This document shows positions 22,200-64,000 of a DNA stretch of 64,000 nt, piece by piece; the first letter of the stretch is position 1; every line of letters starts with the position of its first letter. The DNA lies in the NCBI GenBank assembly GCA_025210615.1, contig JAOARJ010000002.1:1-64000 (forward strand). Reading direction: 5' to 3'. This DNA comes from Candidatus Altimarinota bacterium (GTDB taxonomy: Bacteria > Patescibacteriota > Gracilibacteria > BD1-5 > UBA6164). The notes under the pieces are model-generated. The model was given only the letters and a program-made list of their open reading frames with translations. It had not been told where the DNA came from and did not search any database. A program made the position numbers and the translations under genes.

Positions 22200-22275
22200 T
22201 GGAGTGGGAGGGAAGAATTGAACTTCCGACTTCTTGAGAGATGCTCAAGCACTCTACCAACTGAGTTACACCCAC
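22200..22275 (-). tRNA. tRNA with abnormal anticodon loop (isotype not assignable)
   Basis: 76 bases with a canonical cloverleaf: acceptor GTGGGTG/CTCCCAC (one U-U mismatch at 6-67), D arm ACTC/GAGT, anticodon stem CTTGA/TCAAG, T arm GGAAG/CTTCC with loop TTCAATT, discriminator U73 and encoded CCA. The 7-base anticodon loop reads GCATCTC: position 33 is C instead of the near-universal U, and positions 34-36 are ATC. U73 is typical of bacterial tRNA-Gly and tRNA-Cys. It may be a non-decoding tRNA, a decayed copy, or a tRNA edited or spliced later. Four bases separate it from the upstream tRNA-Asp. Confidence 0.75.
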
Positions 22276-22279
22276 TCTT

Positions 22280-22357
22280 TGGCTGGGGAGACGGGGTTCG
22301 AACCCGCGTATTCCTGAATGACAGTCAGGCACCTAAGCCGAACTCGGTTACTCCCCA
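22280..22357 (-). tRNA. tRNA-Asp(GTC)
   Basis: 78 bases. Acceptor TGGGGAG/CTCCCCA, anticodon stem CCTGA/TCAGG with loop CTGTCAT (U33, anticodon GTC, A37), T arm GCGGG/CCCGT with TTCGAAC, discriminator G73 and encoded CCA. G73 fits tRNA-Asp. The D arm is long. Confidence 0.9.
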
Positions 22358-49516: not shown

Positions 49517-50530
49517 TTATTGAATTTCTTCAGTTTCTTTTAAAGCTGTTTTTAATGCTTCTATTTTTTTAAGAGTTGCTTCGTCCATGTTTGCCATATT
49601 CGCATATTTTTCAATTCTATTCATCAATGCTTCTTGAAGATTGGTCATTTCTCATTCATATTTTTTAATAGTTTCTTCTACTTGAGCGTTGGCTTGCTCA
49701 GTCATTTTAAACATTTCTCAATCTAATTCTACTCAAACTCAATCCATATTAAATTTTTCTACCATATTTCCATATTTTTCTTGTAATTTTACACCAAATT
49801 CATTTATATTTTTTATTTGTTTAGCAATCATTTTATCAGCTTCTTCCATCATTTTATTTGTCATATTTTCTACATTTTTCATTTGTTTATTCAATATTTC
49901 AGCTTCCATATTTGCTGTTTTTTCAAGCATTTGTCCAGCTATATCTAAGGCTTTATCAGGATTATTTCAAATTTCTTCAGACATTTTTGTTATATCTTGT
50001 GTATAAGCATCAACATCAGCAGTAATTTCTTTTCATAAATTTTCTCAATAAGTTCACATTTCTTTTCAGAAATTTTCTCACCAAGCAGCCATTTCAACTC
50101 AAAATTCAGAAGTACTAGCTCAACCACTTTTTTCTAAGTTTTTTATTTTCTCTTCAGCTCTAGTAGTAACTCTTTTTATTTCTTTTTTAGCTTTAAGTTT
50201 TAATTTTACTATTTCAACTTGTTTTTCTTTTTCTGTTTCTATAAAAAATCAATCTATTTCAACTTCTAAGATTTCTTTTTCTAAATCTTTTTCTATTTCC
50301 GCTATTTCTTCTTTAAGTTCATCTTTAATTTCTTGTATTTTTTTTGCTAATTCTGCTTTATCTTCAGCTTCTTCCAATGCTTTTTTTTCAGTTTCTACTT
50401 CTGATTGAAGTTTAGATAATTCATTAGATAAATCACTTTCAGTTCATAATACAACACCAGCGTTTACGCTTAATGAACTAAAAAATAAGACCGTTAAAGC
50501 CAATAAAGCTGTTATTTTTTTGTTATTCAT
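49517..50530 (-). CDS. Secreted coiled-coil protein
   Basis: 337 residues. Signal peptide (about 1-22, ending VNAG). A Glu/Lys-rich coiled coil spans residues about 30-130, followed by a Met/Asn/Glu-rich helical C-terminal half (NMEAEILNKQMKNVENM). No family recognised. Same strand as the MacB-type set but separated from the permease by 110 bases, so perhaps a separate unit; it might be a periplasmic or surface partner. Confidence 0.7.
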
Positions 50531-50640: not shown

Positions 50641-51873
50641 TTATTCAAATCTTAATGCGTCAATAGGTTTTAATTTTGCAGCTTTCCATGCGGGCATTAT
50701 TCAGAATAATACTCACATTCCCATTGATACGCTACAAGCAAGGATTATAACTCTTGTTGTGATGACGGTTTTAAATTCATCCATTCACATATTATTTATA
50801 ATTTCAGCAATTCAATAACTGAGTCACACCGCGATAATTCATCAGATTATACTTATTACAATTGATTCTATCAAAAATTGCAATAGAATATCTTTTTTTC
50901 TGGCTCAAATTGATTTTCTAATTCAGATTTCTCTTGTTCTTTCAGTTACGGATACAAGCATTATATTCATAACTCAAATTCATCATACAAGTAAGGAAAT
51001 ACTAGCAATTCAACCTAAGAATAATTGCATTCATCATACTATTTTATCTGCTTGTTTAAGTGCATCAGCATTTGTTTCTATTCTAAATTTTACACTACTG
51101 GGAGAATCTACTCAAGATAATTTAAACAATAAATATTGGATGTTTCTTTTTGTTTGGTCTATATAAAAAATATCTTTTACATATGCTTCAATTTTTTCTA
51201 ATTTATTAGAATTTAATCTCTTTTGAGCAGTCGTAATAGGGATTAATACGCTATTATCAATTTGCCGATTATCTTTTTTGTCTAATACTCAAATTACATT
51301 AAAAAGTTGTCATCAAATAACCAATTGTTCTCATATAGGGTTTTCTCATTTAAAAATATCAGCGACTTTTTTGTATCAAATAACAGCGACTTTTTCATTA
51401 TTTTTTAAATGTCTAGGTAGAATTCAGTATCAATAATCGAGATTTACTTGTTTTGCGCTCAAAAACTCATTATCCACTCATTTTATATCAGCCCGAGTAT
51501 GTTTTCACTTATATGTCATATTAGCATCCACTCTAGCAATAGGGATTACAGTTCTAATATTTGGTACTTTTTCTTTCAAGATATTTATGTTATCATAAGT
51601 GATTACATTTTTTGCAGGTTTTCTTAGTTCTCATCATGATTCATCTCATCATCTTTTTTCTCTTGAATAACCTCAATAACTAGGGGATATTACGACCACA
51701 TCGTTAGTTGTAGTTAGGTTTTTTATAATACTTTCCCTAACTCATTCTCAAATTCACAGCATAACAACAACTGATGAAATTCAGATTACTACTCATAAAG
51801 TAGATAAAACAGACCTAAGTTTATTATTAAAAATAGCGTCAAATGATTCTCAAAAATGTTCGAAAATATTCAT
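50641..51873 (-). CDS. MacB-like ABC transporter permease
   Basis: 410 residues, MacB/FtsX architecture: N-terminal FEHFGESFDAIFNNKLRSVLSTLG (family start), one helix, a large periplasmic domain (about residues 45-270), and three C-terminal helices. It has two CGG codons in the periplasmic domain, one in KHT[CGG]ADIKG. Partners: ATPase (51941) and long adaptor (52676) in the same direction. Probably exports or translates force to extracytoplasmic substrates. No lipoprotein-release signature. Confidence 0.85.
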
Positions 51874-51940
51874 AATTTATTATTTAATTTTAATTATTTT
51901 AACTCTTAATTTTACAAAAATTTTAAATAAAATTATTTTT

Positions 51941-52636
51941 TTAAGTTAAAAGTCAATCTTTTACAGTAACGATTTTTTTTGTTAAATTAGCGATATCTGG
52001 CTCATGTGTAATTACTACGATAGTTTTTCATTCTTTGTTTAGCTCAGAAAAAATATTCATTACTTCTTCTCAAGTTTTTGTATCTAATGCTCAAGTCGGT
52101 TCATCAGCTAAAATTAAAGCAGGTTCCATAACTATAGCCCTTGCTATAGCAACTCTTTGTTTTTGTCCTCACGATAATTCATCAGGTTTGCTTGTTAATT
52201 TATCTTCAAGTCATACTTTTGCTAGAGCATTTATTGCTCTTTGTTTCGCTTGCTTTCTGTTTACTCAAGCATAAATCATAGGTGTCATAACTTGTTTTAA
52301 AACTTTCATTCTTGGAATTAAAGAATAATTTTGAAAGACAAATCAAATATTTTCTCATCTAATTTTTGTTTGTTCACCATCTGATAAATTATTAATTTCT
52401 TCTCATTTTAAAATATAATCTCATTGTGTAGCATCGTCTAACATTCAAATTATATTCATTAACGTAGATTTTCCGCTTCAACTAGGTCACATAATAGATA
52501 AAAAATCTCATTCCATAATATCTAAACTTACTCATTTTAAAGCGTCAAAAGTTTGGTCTTTTCAAATTTTATAAGTTTTGATAATATTTTTTAATTCTAT
52601 CATTTTTTTACCAGTTTTTTCTACTTTTTTATTCAT
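51941..52636 (-). CDS. MacB/LolD-type ABC transporter ATPase
   Basis: 231 residues. Walker A GPSGSGKST (with TGA glycines), Q-loop FQNYSLIPRMKVLKQV, ABC signature LSGGQKQRVAIARA, Walker B ALILADEPTGALD, H-loop VVITHEPDIA. Starts at ATG 52636 (an in-frame ATG exists at 52603). Drives the MacB-like permease by ATP hydrolysis. Short N-terminal basic extension (VEKTGKK). Confidence 0.92.
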
Positions 52637-52675
52637 TTTTTTAAGTAAAAATTATTTATAAAAATTATTGATTAA

Positions 52676-54883
52676 TTACCGTCCCATCATTCCTCATCAT
52701 CCAAATTCATCGTCTTTAAATTTATTTGCATCAAAGTTTACTTCTACAACTTCTTCTCACGCTTTTAATCAAGAAATAACCTCTGTTTGTTTTCCATTTG
52801 CAATTCAAATTTCGATTTTTCTTTTTTCTTTTTTATCTCAATTTTTTACTGTAACATAAGTTTCTCATTCGTTATTAGTTTCAATTGCTGTTGACGGAAT
52901 AAGTAAAATATCTTTTTTATTGTCAGTAATAATTTCTACATTGGCAGTCATTCCTGAATAAATAACTTCATCACCATCTTTTTTAAGTAAAACTTTTATT
53001 TCATAACTTACTCAATCATATTTTTCAACAGGAGTTCAGCTTATATCTCACATTTCTCATTCATAAACTTTTCAAGGAAAAGCATCAAATTTTATTCTAA
53101 CTTCTTGATCTTTTTTCACTTTAACAATATCAACTTGGTCTAAATTAACTCAAATTTCTATAATATTTGGATTTTCTATAACGATTTTTTCACTAGCATT
53201 ATCTGAAATTTTACTTCCAGATTTATAATCAAAAGTTCTAATAATTCAGTCAAAAGGAGCTTTAATATCATATTTATCAAGTTTTTCTTGCATATTTTCA
53301 AGTTTTAATTTTGCTTGTTTAACTGCATTTTTTGCGATAAGTAAATCTGATTTATTAGGTCCAGTTGACGTTTCATTATATTCTTTTTCTGCTTTTTCTA
53401 GCTCTTTTTTAGTGTCTCTTAATTCTTTTTGTTTATTTTCAAAAGTTTCAAGTTGCTCTCTTTCAAATTTTGGTAAAGAATTTTTTAATTCTTCATAATC
53501 TTTAGTTGCTTTTTCTAAGCTAATATCTTTTTGGCTTAAATCATAGCTCAAGCTTGATTCTAATTTTTTTACTTCTTTTTCTAAATCTGTAATTGTTTGC
53601 ATTTTATCTTCGTACGCTTTATTTAAATCTTTCAATGCTCTTTCGCTTCTTTGAGTCATTATTTCAGGTTTATCTAAGTTTTGCAAGTCGTTAATTCTAG
53701 TTTTTGTAGAAGTCATCTTGCTTTGATAAGAAGTTCTTAAACTTTCAGCGGAAGATTTATAAGCCGTAGTATAACCTTCCATATCAGTAGAAGCAGTTTC
53801 TTTTAATCACTTTGAAACATAATCAGCAGTAGTCATCATAGCCTCATAAAGACCTCTATAACGTCTTTCAGTTTCAATTAAATCATCAATTGTATGATTT
53901 TCTTTTTTTAATAATTCTTCAGTATATTCTTTAACTTCATCATATTTTTCTAATGCAACTCTGAAATTCATTTCAGCCTTAATTTTTGTATCAGGATTTT
54001 TATTAGAAAAAACTGAATAATAAGAGCCTTCCAAGTCATCACTTCTGATTCATAAAATATTATTAAAGAATTTTACGTCGCTATCAATAGATAAATTTGT
54101 CGTTTTTATATCTAAAATACTTGTATCAATTTTATTGTGATAGTTAAAAATACTTTGTTCTAAATTTCTTTTTTCTTTTGTTATATCATCCTCTAATTTA
54201 GCTTTATCACTAGGCTTATTCGCTATTTTTTCTTCCAAATCTTTTTTCTTTTTTTCTAAAGTTCTTTTTAGTTCATCTTTTTCTTCTGGAGTTAATTCTT
54301 TTTGTTTATCTAAGTCGTTTTTAGCTTTTTCTATTTCAACTTTTTTGTCGAATAATGCTTTTTCTTGAGATTTTTCAAGTTCTTTTATTTCAGATTCTAA
54401 ATTTGTTATTTTTTTCTTTAAATCTTTTATTTTATCAGCTAAATTATTATTATTTTCATCGTGATCTTCAAGTAATTTATTATATTTAATTCTTTCATTA
54501 TCTAAATCTAATTTTGCTTGTTCAATTTCATTATAAACATCACTTTTATTCATTGATGCTAAAAGTTCTCATTTTTTTACACTATCTCAAGCCTTATAAT
54601 TAGCCAAAGTAATCGTTCAAGTTTGATTAAATTTTAATTCTTGTTCGTTTACTATTTTTGATTTTCAAAGTACTTTAATGTTTACTTCTAAATCTCATTT
54701 TTCGGCAATAGCAGTAGAAGCTTTTCATAGATGTTCTGGTATATCAATATTATCTGGTAATTTTTCTCATTCAGCTTGTGGCGAAAAGAAAAATGATTTT
54801 ACCCCAAATCATAAAATTAACATCGCGCATAAAATTATCACCACTTTTTTACTTGGCTTCTTTAAAAGTTTTTTTGCTCTCAT
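52676..54883 (-). CDS. Very long HlyD/MacA-type membrane fusion protein
   Basis: 735 residues against about 370-480 for ordinary adaptors. N-terminal membrane helix (about residues 8-30), lipoyl-like segment near residues 75-105, then an uninterrupted coiled-coil-rich region at residues about 112-545 containing three long Glu/Lys heptad blocks, then beta-barrel and membrane-proximal domains (residues about 550-730). Ends in a Gly/Met tail. It would reach far beyond a normal envelope. Pairs with the MacB-type permease and ATPase. Inference: bridges to an outer layer, a host surface or a long periplasm. Confidence 0.82.
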
Positions 54884-54988
54884 TTCTACAATAAAATAAA
54901 TAAAATAAATAAATTTTCTTTGCTTACTTTTCTTATAACGCAATAATTATAAAAAAGTTACAATATTTTTCAAAAGAAAATATAAAAA

Positions 54989-59566: not shown

Positions 59567-59582
59567 CTTACAAAACTCTTAC
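59567..59582 (+). promoter_or_regulatory. Putative response-regulator site 1 (CTTAC-N6-CTTAC)
   Basis: CTTACAAAACTCTTAC, two direct CTTAC half-sites 11 bases apart, one helical turn, as bound by OmpR/PhoB-family dimers. About 110 bases upstream of the regulator gene, suggesting autoregulation. Confidence 0.6.
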
Positions 59583-59689
59583 TAATTTTTATTAAATTGT
59601 AAACAGCTAATTTTACACTAATATTTTATAAACTTGTATTTTAAGGTTTTTAAAATATAATATTTACAATATAATTTTATTTAAAAATT

Positions 59690-60352
59690 ATGAAAATTCT
59701 AATAGTCGAAGATAATGAAATTTTGTCCAACAATATAAACGCTTATTTAAAGCTAAAAAATATAGAATCTAAACAGCTTTTTGAGTGAAAGGCTGCTAAC
59801 TATGAATTATCTAATAATAGTTATGATTTGGTCATTTTAGATTTATGACTTCCTGATATTGATGGGCTTGAAGTATGTAACCAAATTAGAAAAAGTTGAA
59901 AAAATATTCCAATTTTAATGTTAACAGCTAGAAGTAATATAAAAGATAAAATTTCTGGCTTTGATAGTGGAGCTGATGATTATCTTACTAAACCTTTTGA
60001 TTATGAAGAATTACTTATGAGAATAAATGCTTTAGTAAGACGTAATCAATCAATAAAATCAAATAATATTACTCTAGATAATTTTGATATAGAAATAAAT
60101 ATTAACACAAAAAAAATATTGTTAAATAATAAAGAAATTCATCTTAGTAAGTTAGAATTTAATTTATTAATTTATTTGGTAAAACATAAGTGAAAAATAT
60201 TATCAAAAGAGCTATTACTAGATAAAGTTTGGGGAGAATATGACGAATTTGGACAGTCAAGAACAGTCGATGTTTATATTTGATATCTAAGAAAAAAATT
60301 AGGAAAAAATCTCATAAAAACAGTTAGAGGACAAGGATATATTATAAATTAG
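59690..60352 (+). CDS. OmpR/PhoB-family response regulator
   Basis: 220 residues. Receiver domain: acidic pocket EDN (7-9), phosphoacceptor Asp 51 (LDLGLPD), conserved T (LTAR) and Lys (LTKPFDY). C-terminal winged helix (about residues 128-220) with [31 protein letters not shown] and the closing TVRGQGYII. Activates or represses targets by binding direct repeats. Confidence 0.95.
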
Positions 60353-60378
60353 TTTTTATAAAAAATAATAAAAAGGTA

Positions 60379-61566
60379 ATGGATAATTATGCAATTCTAG
60401 AAAAACATAGAAAAAAATTAAGCGTATATTTTGCTTTATTTATCTTACTTTCTTTGTGGATAACACAAGGAATCTTTTTGATTGTAAGTTATACTTGAAG
60501 TAATTTATTTTTACAAGAAAGATTTAGACAAAAGCTGACTTGAGTAGAAAATGTTTTAAAAAATAAAGCCGAATATAGTGAAAAAATTGCAAATAATGAT
60601 ACAACTCTTGAAAAATTAGTAGAAAAGTCACTAGAAAATGTTTCTATTACTCAAGCTTGAAACCTGATTTTATGAGATTTAGATGACATAAATTTGTTGA
60701 AAAATATTAATAGAATAGAATCTTGAGATTATACTTATTTTAAGACAAATACAACGATAAATGATGAAAATTATCAGATAATTATAAAGATTTTTAATCC
60801 TGCGAATTTTAATAGATTATTAACTGATTATTTAAATTTTATTTGAACAACTTTAATTTTTTCTGTGTTATTTTATTATTTATGATACTTTTTTGTAGGG
60901 AGAAACTTGCGTCCTATAAGGGAAACTATTGCTTCTTTAGAATCTTTTAGTGCGAATATTAATCATGAGATGAAAACTCCGCTTGCTGAGATTATTTCTA
61001 CATTAAGTTTAGCGCAAGCTACGAAAGATAATTATGAGCAAGCTATAAATCAATCCTTGCAATCGTCTCAAAGATTAGATAAGATTTTAGATTCAATGCT
61101 TGGTATAATAAATCTAGTAAAATCGTCTTATAGTAGGGAAAAAGTAGACTTAATTTCACAAATAAAAAATATAATTTCAGAAAAACAAAATTTGCTTTTA
61201 GAAAAAAATATTACAATAAATACTGATTTTAAAAATAAGAATTTTTCTCAAAAAATTAATAAACAATATTTTGATATAGTTGTATGAAATGTACTTTCTA
61301 ATGCGATAAAATACTCTAATGAAAATTGAGTAATTAACATAACTTTTGAAAATTGAGAATTAGAAATTGAAGATTTTTGAGTATGAATAGATGAAAAAAA
61401 CTTAAAAAATATTTTCTCGAGATTTTTTAGAGAGGATTATAATAAAGAAAAATGACTTTGAATTTGACTTTCTTTAGTTAAGAAAATAGCTGATTTATAT
61501 TCTTGGAAAATATCTATTGAAAGTCAAAAATGAATTTGAACCAAAGTAAAAATTTCTTTTTTATAA
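60379..61566 (+). CDS. Sensor histidine kinase
   Basis: 395 residues. Two membrane helices (about 18-42 and 150-172) flank an extracytoplasmic sensor of about 105 residues with no known fold. No separate HAMP is clear. H box INHEMKTPLAE (His 196), N box NVLSNAIKYSNENG, D/F box DFGVGIDEKN and FSRFFRE, G box GLGIGLSLVKKI. Starts 26 bases after the regulator. Senses an envelope signal presumably linked to the exported targets downstream. Confidence 0.93.
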
Positions 61567-61613
61567 AAAAATAAGTAAAATATAAAAAGTAATAAAATAA
61601 GTTATTTCTAAAT

Positions 61614-62072
61614 ATGAAAATACAAAAAAATCTCACATTAATTATACTTCTTTTTCTTATTTCTTGCTGACAGAATGTTAATCAAGATGACTTTTTAGAC
61701 AATAAAGAAAATACTTCAAATAATCAAGTTAATATAATAAACACCAAAGAAGAAAAAATAGAAAAAACAACAGTGAATGTAAATGACTTTTTATGAGTAG
61801 ATAAGATAAAAAATACTTCAGAAGATAATATTGATAGCGATAATAAAGAAAATAATTCACAAGAAAATCAAGAAAATATTGAAGTTTTAGTAGAAGAAAA
61901 TAATAATAATAATAATAATAAACAAGAAGAAAGTAATGAAAATATTGAAGATATTGAAATTAATTTTGATGAATTATTTGCTTCTGAAACTGAAAAAACA
62001 AGCGAAATAACGAGTTTAGAAAATACAACTGAAGAAGATATTGCTGCGTTAGTTGATACACTTTTTGATTAA
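61614..62072 (+). CDS. Acidic lipoprotein
   Basis: 152 residues. Lipobox LISCG (Cys near residue 18, Gly encoded by TGA) after a hydrophobic run. The mature part is Asn/Glu/Thr-rich, with a homopolymeric Asn run encoded by an AAT repeat (about 61906-61926). Third gene of the two-component operon by position, so it may modulate the sensor. No motif. Confidence 0.72.
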
Positions 62073-62074
62073 AA

Positions 62075-62090
62075 CTTACTATTTTCTTAC
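62075..62090 (+). promoter_or_regulatory. Putative response-regulator site 2
   Basis: CTTACTATTTTCTTAC, half-sites 11 bases apart, 43 bases before the ATG at 62133, with a TATAAA (about 62101) downstream as -10, replacing the -35. Confidence 0.6.
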
Positions 62091-62132
62091 AAACAAAAAT
62101 TATAAAATATATATAGAATTAATGATAAAAAT

Positions 62133-63020
62133 ATGAAAAAAATAGCTAATTTTACATTAACTAGACTGATAACTAAAAAAATGTTTATTTTGGTCTTTTT
62201 CGGCTTATTTATGTTTAATAATAATATTTTTGCAGTAAAAATTTCTGATTTAGATATAAAAGAAGACAGAGAAAAAATTATCATTATTTTAAATAAATTT
62301 AGAGATTTATCTCCAGAAGAAAAAAGAGAATTTACTAGAAAATTAAGTAGGGAAGATAGGCAAAAATTCCAAGAATTTAAATCACAAATTCAGGAAAAAA
62401 TAAAAAATAATAAACCTAAAAGAATTAATCCTGATAGAGAGTTTATTAGTAGAGATAATTTTTTGAGAGATCAAAACAGAATAAAACCAGAAAGAAAAGA
62501 TAATAATAGAGAAAAGCAACCAGAAAATAATTTAAGAGAGCATAATAATTTTAAGGAAGATAGAAGACCACCTAGACCACCAATGTTTGATCAAAATAAT
62601 GAAAGACATAAAAAAATAAAAGAAAGATTAGATAGATTAAAAGATAATTTTGAAAAGAAAAAAGATACAATAATAAGAGATTATAAGGAGTGAAAAATAA
62701 GTAGGGAAGAGGCTGTAAAAAAACTATTTTCAGAGAGAGAAAGATTAATAAAATCTCATGATAGAGAAATAGAAAAAACAATGCAAGAAGAAGTTAAGGA
62801 AAATATAAATAGATTAAAAATTACTCTTCAAAAAGAATTAGATAAAAAGTTAAAAAATACTTATAAATTATCTAGTGATAGACAAATAGAGCTATATAAT
62901 AATATTATAGAAAAAATAGATATCGCTTTAAATAATACAAAAATAGAAGAAAAAAATAAAGTTTTATTCACTTTATTAAAAGATATATTACAAGAAAAAA
63001 TTGATAATTTTAAAAAATAA
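62133..63020 (+). CDS. Exported basic coiled-coil protein
   Basis: 295 residues. Signal peptide or anchor (about 17-35, FILVFFGLFMF..NIFAV). Mature protein extremely Lys/Arg/Glu/Asp-rich; one segment, LSPEEKREFTRKLSREDRQKFQEF, is in the style of Spy/CpxP-type stress proteins. Arg/Pro-rich patch (RRPPRPP). The second half is coiled coil. Behind a CTTAC repeat, it is a likely target of the two-component system. Confidence 0.68.
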
Positions 63021-63133
63021 GTATAATTATATCTTAACAAAATAACAAAAAGCCGCAAAAAATAAAGAAAAATATAGATGATATATAATAAATATACTGT
63101 TAAAATAGAGGAGTAAAAGAAAAAATAATTTTT

Positions 63134-63149
63134 CTTACAAATCTCTTAC
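63134..63149 (+). promoter_or_regulatory. Putative response-regulator site 3
   Basis: CTTACAAATCTCTTAC, half-sites 11 bases apart, 67 bases before the ATG at 63216. Sites 1 and 3 match at 15 of 16 positions. Confidence 0.65.
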
Positions 63150-63215
63150 GATGACTAGTTATTATAAGCGTAACCTAAACAGGTAAAAACATTATTATAT
63201 TTTAACTTTATAGTT

Positions 63216-64000
63216 ATGAGAAATACAAAAAAATTACTACTTGCTAGTTTGTTAATAGTAAGTATTGCTGGAGCTTTAAATGCTAGCGCTGATGAATCTT
63301 CTACAGAAAATAAAAATGGAAGACCAATGATGAATGCTATGCAAAAATGAGTAAAGCAAGGGATGAATAAAATGTGAATGGAAGCTTTTTCTAATCTAGA
63401 TGAGACTATTCAAGAAGAAATTAAAGCTCTAATGGAAAAACATAAAGAGGATATGGATGAAGTAAGAGAAAAAATGAAAAATACTGATTTAACAGATGAT
63501 GAAAAAGAAGATTTAAAAGAAGAATTAAAAAGTATTAATGAAGCGTTCATTGAAGATTTGAAAGAATTAGTATGAGATGATGAACAAGCTTTGGCTTATA
63601 TTGAAAAAATGGAACAATATTGAGAAATGAAAGGTGAATATAAAGAAGATAAAGCGAATTTAAAAGAAAGCAAGAAAGAAATGAGAGAGGAAAATAAATA
63701 TTTAAGAGAAGGAGTTAATGATAATAGAAAAGATTTTATTGATGAAAATGGTACTTTTGTAGATGCTTTTTCTAATTTATCTGATGAAATTAAAGAAGAA
63801 TTAAAAACTTTAAGAGAACAGTATCAAGCCGATATGAAAGAACTTAAAGAAAAAATGCAAGAAGAATGATTAACTGCTAATGACAGAGATGTATTAAGAG
63901 AAGATTTTTATGAAATTAATGACGCTTATCTTGAAAAAATTAAAGAATTAGTTGCTGAAGATGAAGATGCTGTCGCTTATTTAGAAGCTAGAGAAGAATT
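63216..64000 (+). CDS. Exported repeat protein of coiled-coil type (incomplete at window end)
   Basis: 261 residues visible, open to the edge. Signal peptide about 1-23, ending in ASA. Two copies of a repeat of about 140 residues begin with EAFSNLDETIQEEIKALMEK and DAFSNLSDEIKEELKTLREQ respectively, then D.E.KEK.....L......L..E...IN.A...  and end with KELV..DE.A.AYLE. The repeats are amphipathic helices rich in Glu, Lys and Asp. Likely a stress-responsive periplasmic or surface protein controlled through site 3. Confidence 0.7.

Follow-up and report, generated by a model that had tools for sequence, protein, structure and literature searches.

The locus described here raises the question of what is controlled by a direct repeat of two CTTAC half-sites, separated by six bases, that lies upstream of a two-component operon and of neighboring genes for exported proteins, and whether the regulator encoded in that operon is the protein that reads it. 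The window analyzed is a stretch of 64,000 nucleotides (64 kb) forming the start of contig C4 of a 1.25 Mb genome that is 96% complete. Its genes form open frames only if TGA encodes glycine (NCBI table 25), as in Gracilibacteria and SR1/Absconditabacteria, and coding sequence makes up around 88% of the window. On the evidence set out below it is highly probable that the response regulator encoded at 59690 uses the repeat as its operator and through it activates, in class II fashion, its own operon and a small envelope regulon of exported proteins and a MacAB-like exporter.

Organization of the locus and occurrence of the repeat

Only when TGA is taken as glycine are the genes of the locus as the original prediction described them, with boxes upstream of the regulator-kinase operon and of two exported proteins (Table 1). 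A small lipoprotein gene between the kinase gene and the second box was absent from that prediction; in alignment its product has conserved ends, the C-terminal one being ELIDILFD-like. Judged from where it is encoded, an accessory sensor role for the lipoprotein is a guess. In the kinase alignment the exposed sensor domain showed less conservation than the N-terminus and the first membrane segment did. Neither Rfam nor tRNA scanning of the window gave a match bearing on the CTTAC boxes. Two adjoining tRNA genes at 22200-22357 on the minus strand were both called tRNA-Asp, one having the unusual anticodon ATC.

Table 1. Predicted features of the two-component locus (window coordinates).
Feature	Position	Strand	Remarks
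Box 1	59567..59582	+	CTTACAAAACTCTTAC; 107 nt upstream of regulator start codon; predicted autoregulation
Weak -10 (TAAATT, 4/6)	59593..59598	+	Exactly 10 nt after box 1
OmpR/PhoB-type response regulator, 220 aa	59690..60352	+	Recognition helix RTVDVYIGYLRKKL; PF00072, PF00486; orthologs
Sensor histidine kinase, 395 aa, two membrane segments	60379..61566	+	PF00512, PF02518
Small acidic lipoprotein, 152 aa, third operon gene	61614..62072	+	Alignment, synteny
Box 2	62075..62090	+	CTTACTATTTTCTTAC
-10 (TATAAA)	62101..62106	+	Exactly 10 nt after box 2
Exported basic helical protein, 295 aa, pI 9.7	62133..63020	+	
Box 3	63134..63149	+	CTTACAAATCTCTTAC
-10 (TATTAT)	63160..63165	+	Exactly 10 nt after box 3
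Exported acidic helical protein with internal repeats, 372 aa, pI 4.6	63216..64000	+	Gene runs beyond window end (L007 4217-5335)

The exact repeat, CTTACNNNNNNCTTAC, was found at all three places given in the original prediction (59567, 62075 and 63134), each time on the plus strand, with no further copy on either strand of the window. Dinucleotide-preserving shuffles of the window (n = 100) held a mean of 0.04 exact repeats with three reached in none. CTTAC pairs at spacings of 0-20 other than 6 were absent from the window. The genome-wide motif scan that had been proposed returned six exact sites in 1.25 Mb, all intergenic and each oriented into a gene, and across the whole genome a spacing of 6 accounted for 6 sites as against 18 at the 30 other spacings (0-30) combined (Poisson P = 4e-5). 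In relatives the corresponding counts were 36 against 40 (G009) and 8 against 59 (G017). Whole-genome CTTAC pairs at spacings of 0-30 were found 22 times on the plus strand and twice on the minus, while lone CTTAC was not so skewed in the window.

One-mismatch sites lay almost entirely inside genes (19/20, against 0/6 of the exact sites; Fisher P = 3e-5) and a two-mismatch version was not enriched (33 observed, 44 expected), such that the signal is the exact repeat and a degenerate motif was rejected.

The regulon and its exported targets

The six exact sites mark the regulator operon, three exported proteins and a MacAB-like exporter. One of the exported proteins, of 392 aa, is preceded by tandem boxes (C11:10117 and C11:10236), while the box at C4:325743 lies 50 nt upstream of an operon for a MacA-like adaptor, an ABC ATPase and a MacB-like permease. 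The sole intergenic one-mismatch site, C8:29377, lies upstream of an exported protein with a -10-like hexamer 10 nt downstream and is for these reasons a probable additional member. The regulon is not, therefore, self-contained within the locus as had been proposed, since boxes also precede the MacAB-like exporter, the C11 exported protein and probably the C8 gene.

The order of regulator, kinase, small lipoprotein, helical protein, box and exported protein is kept in three relatives (G017, G021, G014), and the same regulator-to-exported-protein order is partly kept in three more (G018, G022, G009). In another family (G037) a boxed gene for an exported protein comes after the kinase operon, with a boxed MacAB operon beyond it. 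The MacAB-like exporter is an order-wide box target, its proteins scoring above cut-off for PF12704, PF02687, PF00005 and TIGR01730. Six of nine MacA orthologs are boxed, four genomes having the box directly and two through a small leading gene, as against none of 12 MacA paralogs, one of which is in the window; orthologs in G021, G009 and G028 have no box, some of them lying near contig ends. The second MacA/ATPase/MacB-like operon of the window (50641-54943, minus strand) was rejected as a regulon target, the box being absent. This operon adjoins a gene for a 337-aa exported helical protein (49517-50530, minus strand). A large expansion of the regulon is seen in G009 (L106-L126), where 36 boxes were found, many of them upstream of genes for exported or surface proteins, a number of which have S-layer domains.

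The exported nature of the targets, claimed from the window, held across genomes, with an N-terminal hydrophobic segment in 47 of 54 non-regulator targets with a -10 compared to 148 of 393 neighboring genes. The exported targets are helical with repeated LT-x-DEK-like segments, and the main ones are acidic, the 295-aa protein being basic; the client surface of Spy is basic (PMC8144458). The likeness to Spy and CpxP put forward in the original prediction did not extend to homology, which was rejected by both sequence and profile comparison. The targets gave no match to PF07813 (LTxxQ), their only hit, PF13801, scored 16.7 bits where the cut-off is 29.2, and profile-profile comparison with Spy/CpxP by hhalign gave probabilities of 1.7% and 0.8%. 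Two single-sequence structure models (pLDDT 72 and 63) had no significant PDB match, with Spy and CpxP not among the matches listed, a result also compatible with the four-helix cradle fold of Spy and CpxP. Nor did the targets show homology to envelope-stress chaperones already described. By analogy, the exported targets may act as holdases.

Envelope stress is a plausible signal for the kinase, a reading that fits the many exported proteins among the targets. A serious rival to it is defense against antimicrobial peptides or toxins, in which the same operator and regulator would serve detoxification, the kinase sensing an antimicrobial peptide or a toxin of host or neighbor, the MacAB-like pump expelling it and the acidic exported proteins binding it. 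In keeping with this, the exporter is a target throughout the order and is physically linked to the two-component genes in G037, and the main exported proteins are acidic. Most targets are, however, exported proteins of unknown role, and many of those in G009 are surface proteins, some of them carrying S-layer domains, which a peptide-detoxification module would not need. Detoxification is possible, though less likely than not.

Promoter geometry

Among 90 intergenic sites drawn from the genome and from relatives in the same family, 58 have a hexamer matching TATAAT at 5/6 positions or better that starts exactly 10 nt past the second half-site, the mean count at the other offsets being 3.6. 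Pho boxes described in the literature sit 10 bp ahead of the -10 (PMC1906773), and with a box at this distance the promoters described here have the geometry of pho-box-like class II promoters. Given the fixed distance of the -10, the box occupies the place of the -35 element. A number of the boxed sites in G013 and G022 lack either a -10 or an exported gene.

According to the mechanism proposed here for envelope control, the phosphorylated regulator would form a head-to-tail dimer with one protomer on each half-site, 11 bp apart, and the bound dimer would stand in for the -35 element, bringing RNA polymerase to the -10 hexamer located 10 nt further on, with class II activation as at pho boxes. 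By this means the regulator would switch on its own operon of regulator, kinase and small lipoprotein in positive autoregulation and would also control the exported helical proteins and the MacAB-like ABC exporter, making up an autoregulated cell-envelope response.

We infer direct binding of the regulator, and activation rather than repression. If the box instead overlaps the -35 region such that the bound regulator blocks polymerase, the regulon would be repressed; the place of the box at -35 could be used in this way too, and RpaB represses from sites near the transcription start (PMC11633204). This is improbable, as the stretch from box to -10 shows no -35 of its own, in keeping with promoters that depend on an activator, and the 10-nt distance from box to -10 equals that of pho boxes (PMC1906773).

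The regulator and recognition of the box

The regulator at 59690 belongs to the OmpR/PhoB family, with PF00072 (97.9 bits) and PF00486 (86.6 bits) both over cut-off, although it reaches no equivalog cut-off (PhoB 193.5 against 296.2 bits; RpaB 167.7 against 330). The direct repeat has an 11-bp period, approximately one helical turn, and is conserved with the regulator, making it a predicted operator. The original proposal of an OmpR/PhoB-family regulator for which the 11-bp direct repeat is the probable operator is in this respect supported by both the domain profiles and the comparative evidence, and autoregulation is supported as well. Orthologs of the regulator with 58-70% identity were found in six other genera. 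The exact box precedes the regulator gene itself in three ortholog genomes (G017, G021, G014), while in G018, G022 and G009 the own-gene box is not recognizable and the box is kept before the neighboring exported protein.

The half-site was found to vary with the recognition helix of the regulator. Regulators with a -GY- helix have CTTA..CTTA and a -10 before their own gene in 17 of 27 cases, compared to none of 12 with other helices, these counts being small and the related rows not independent, as seen on the regulator tree, where the box label requires 14 changes, as against 21 with shuffled labels. Helices of the form [HY][IV]GY go with half-sites starting with C (CTTAC), the helix HIST, in three species of another family, goes with TTTAC-N6-TTTAC, and YISS and YISY go with mixed boxes. 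Of all the observations made, this covariation argues most strongly for the regulator as the reader of the box. What computation shows is the repeat with its fixed geometry, the set of targets, and conservation alongside the regulator clade, and the comparative evidence goes well beyond what the window on its own could provide.

It could be argued that the box is read by some other factor, whether a different regulator or an alternative sigma factor, with the two-component genes only one of its targets. A second, sister clade of regulators with about 48% identity has the same box in other species, which makes the identity of the reader ambiguous in those species, and the fixed distance to the -10 would also suit an extended promoter element. 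Of the three OmpR-type regulators that a similarity search of the genome gave, however, only that at 59690 has a box upstream, changes in the half-site go together with changes in the helix of the neighboring regulator, and relatives without the regulator clade (G001, G002, G006, G007, G015) have 0 or 1 exact sites, such that a different reader is very improbable. A chance origin of the repeat in AT-rich DNA has negligible probability despite the two-mismatch pattern not being enriched, this reading being rejected by the shuffles (3 in the window, 0.04 expected), the spacing specificity, the intergenic placement, the fixed -10 and the conservation across genera.

Comparison with known systems

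The regulon predicted to be under the control of the 59690 regulator is of a kind already known, an OmpR/PhoB-type regulon with a pho-box-like promoter. It shares with PhoB and the pho box a winged-helix response regulator, a direct repeat of 11-bp period and a box ending 10 bp before the -10 (PMC1906773), while the half-site, CTTAC(A), is not the E. coli pho half-site and the targets are envelope proteins and an exporter rather than phosphate genes. The resemblance to CpxRA lies in predicted autoregulation and in exported helical proteins and efflux among the targets. The Cpx box is a direct repeat, GTAAA-N5-GTAAA (PMC12802237), whose half-site is the complement of the TTTAC found with the HIST helix in relatives, and the HISN helix of E. 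coli CpxR resembles HIST. At E. coli cpxP the sequence reading toward the gene is TTTAC-N5-TTTAC, close to the TTTAC-N6-TTTAC of the relatives. Read on the complementary strand, the locus has GTAAG-N6-GTAAG in place of the GTAAA-N4-8-GTAAA of a CpxRA operator, though the relatives with the HIST helix do have GTAAA-N6-GTAAA. In contrast to CpxRA, the half-site here is CTTAC, the box abuts the -10, the operon includes a small lipoprotein, the regulator is 34% identical to CpxR, and the targets are not homologous to CpxP or Spy, no CpxP homolog being found among them by hhalign (1.7% and 0.8%).

The RpaB/HLR1 and SphR boxes of cyanobacteria, tandem TTACA or CTTAACCT repeats, are likewise read by OmpR-type regulators (PMC11633204; PMC1906773), but HLR1 has a period of 10 bp and different targets. 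The exporter has the adaptor, ATPase and FtsX-type permease with MacB core domain of MacAB-type exporters, but falls below the MacA and MacB equivalog cut-offs and has its ATPase and permease as separate proteins.

In the literature searched, which included few subscription journals, no two-component regulon was found described together with its operator for either Gracilibacteria or Absconditabacteria, and the system, half-site, target set and lineage appear to be undescribed there. The host group is barely cultured and hard to grow, and for this reason the predicted regulator, operator, promoter geometry and targets open its envelope biology to experiment. Drawn from sequence, this is an unusually complete prediction of how a gracilibacterial cell controls its surface, and the natural variation in helix and half-site is a useful data set for DNA recognition by the OmpR family. 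More speculatively, there could be an order-wide set of code-25 envelope regulators with a simple helix code (-GY- for CTTAC, HIST for TTTAC), expanded in some species, as with the 36 boxes of G009, into a master switch for surface proteins, S-layer proteins among them, and possibly tied to an attached or predatory life, with the lipoprotein as a new accessory sensor, but this is tentative.

A minor observation concerns the arrangement of half-sites in G037, where five tandem TTTAC half-sites in 11-bp steps lie upstream of the regulator in L098.
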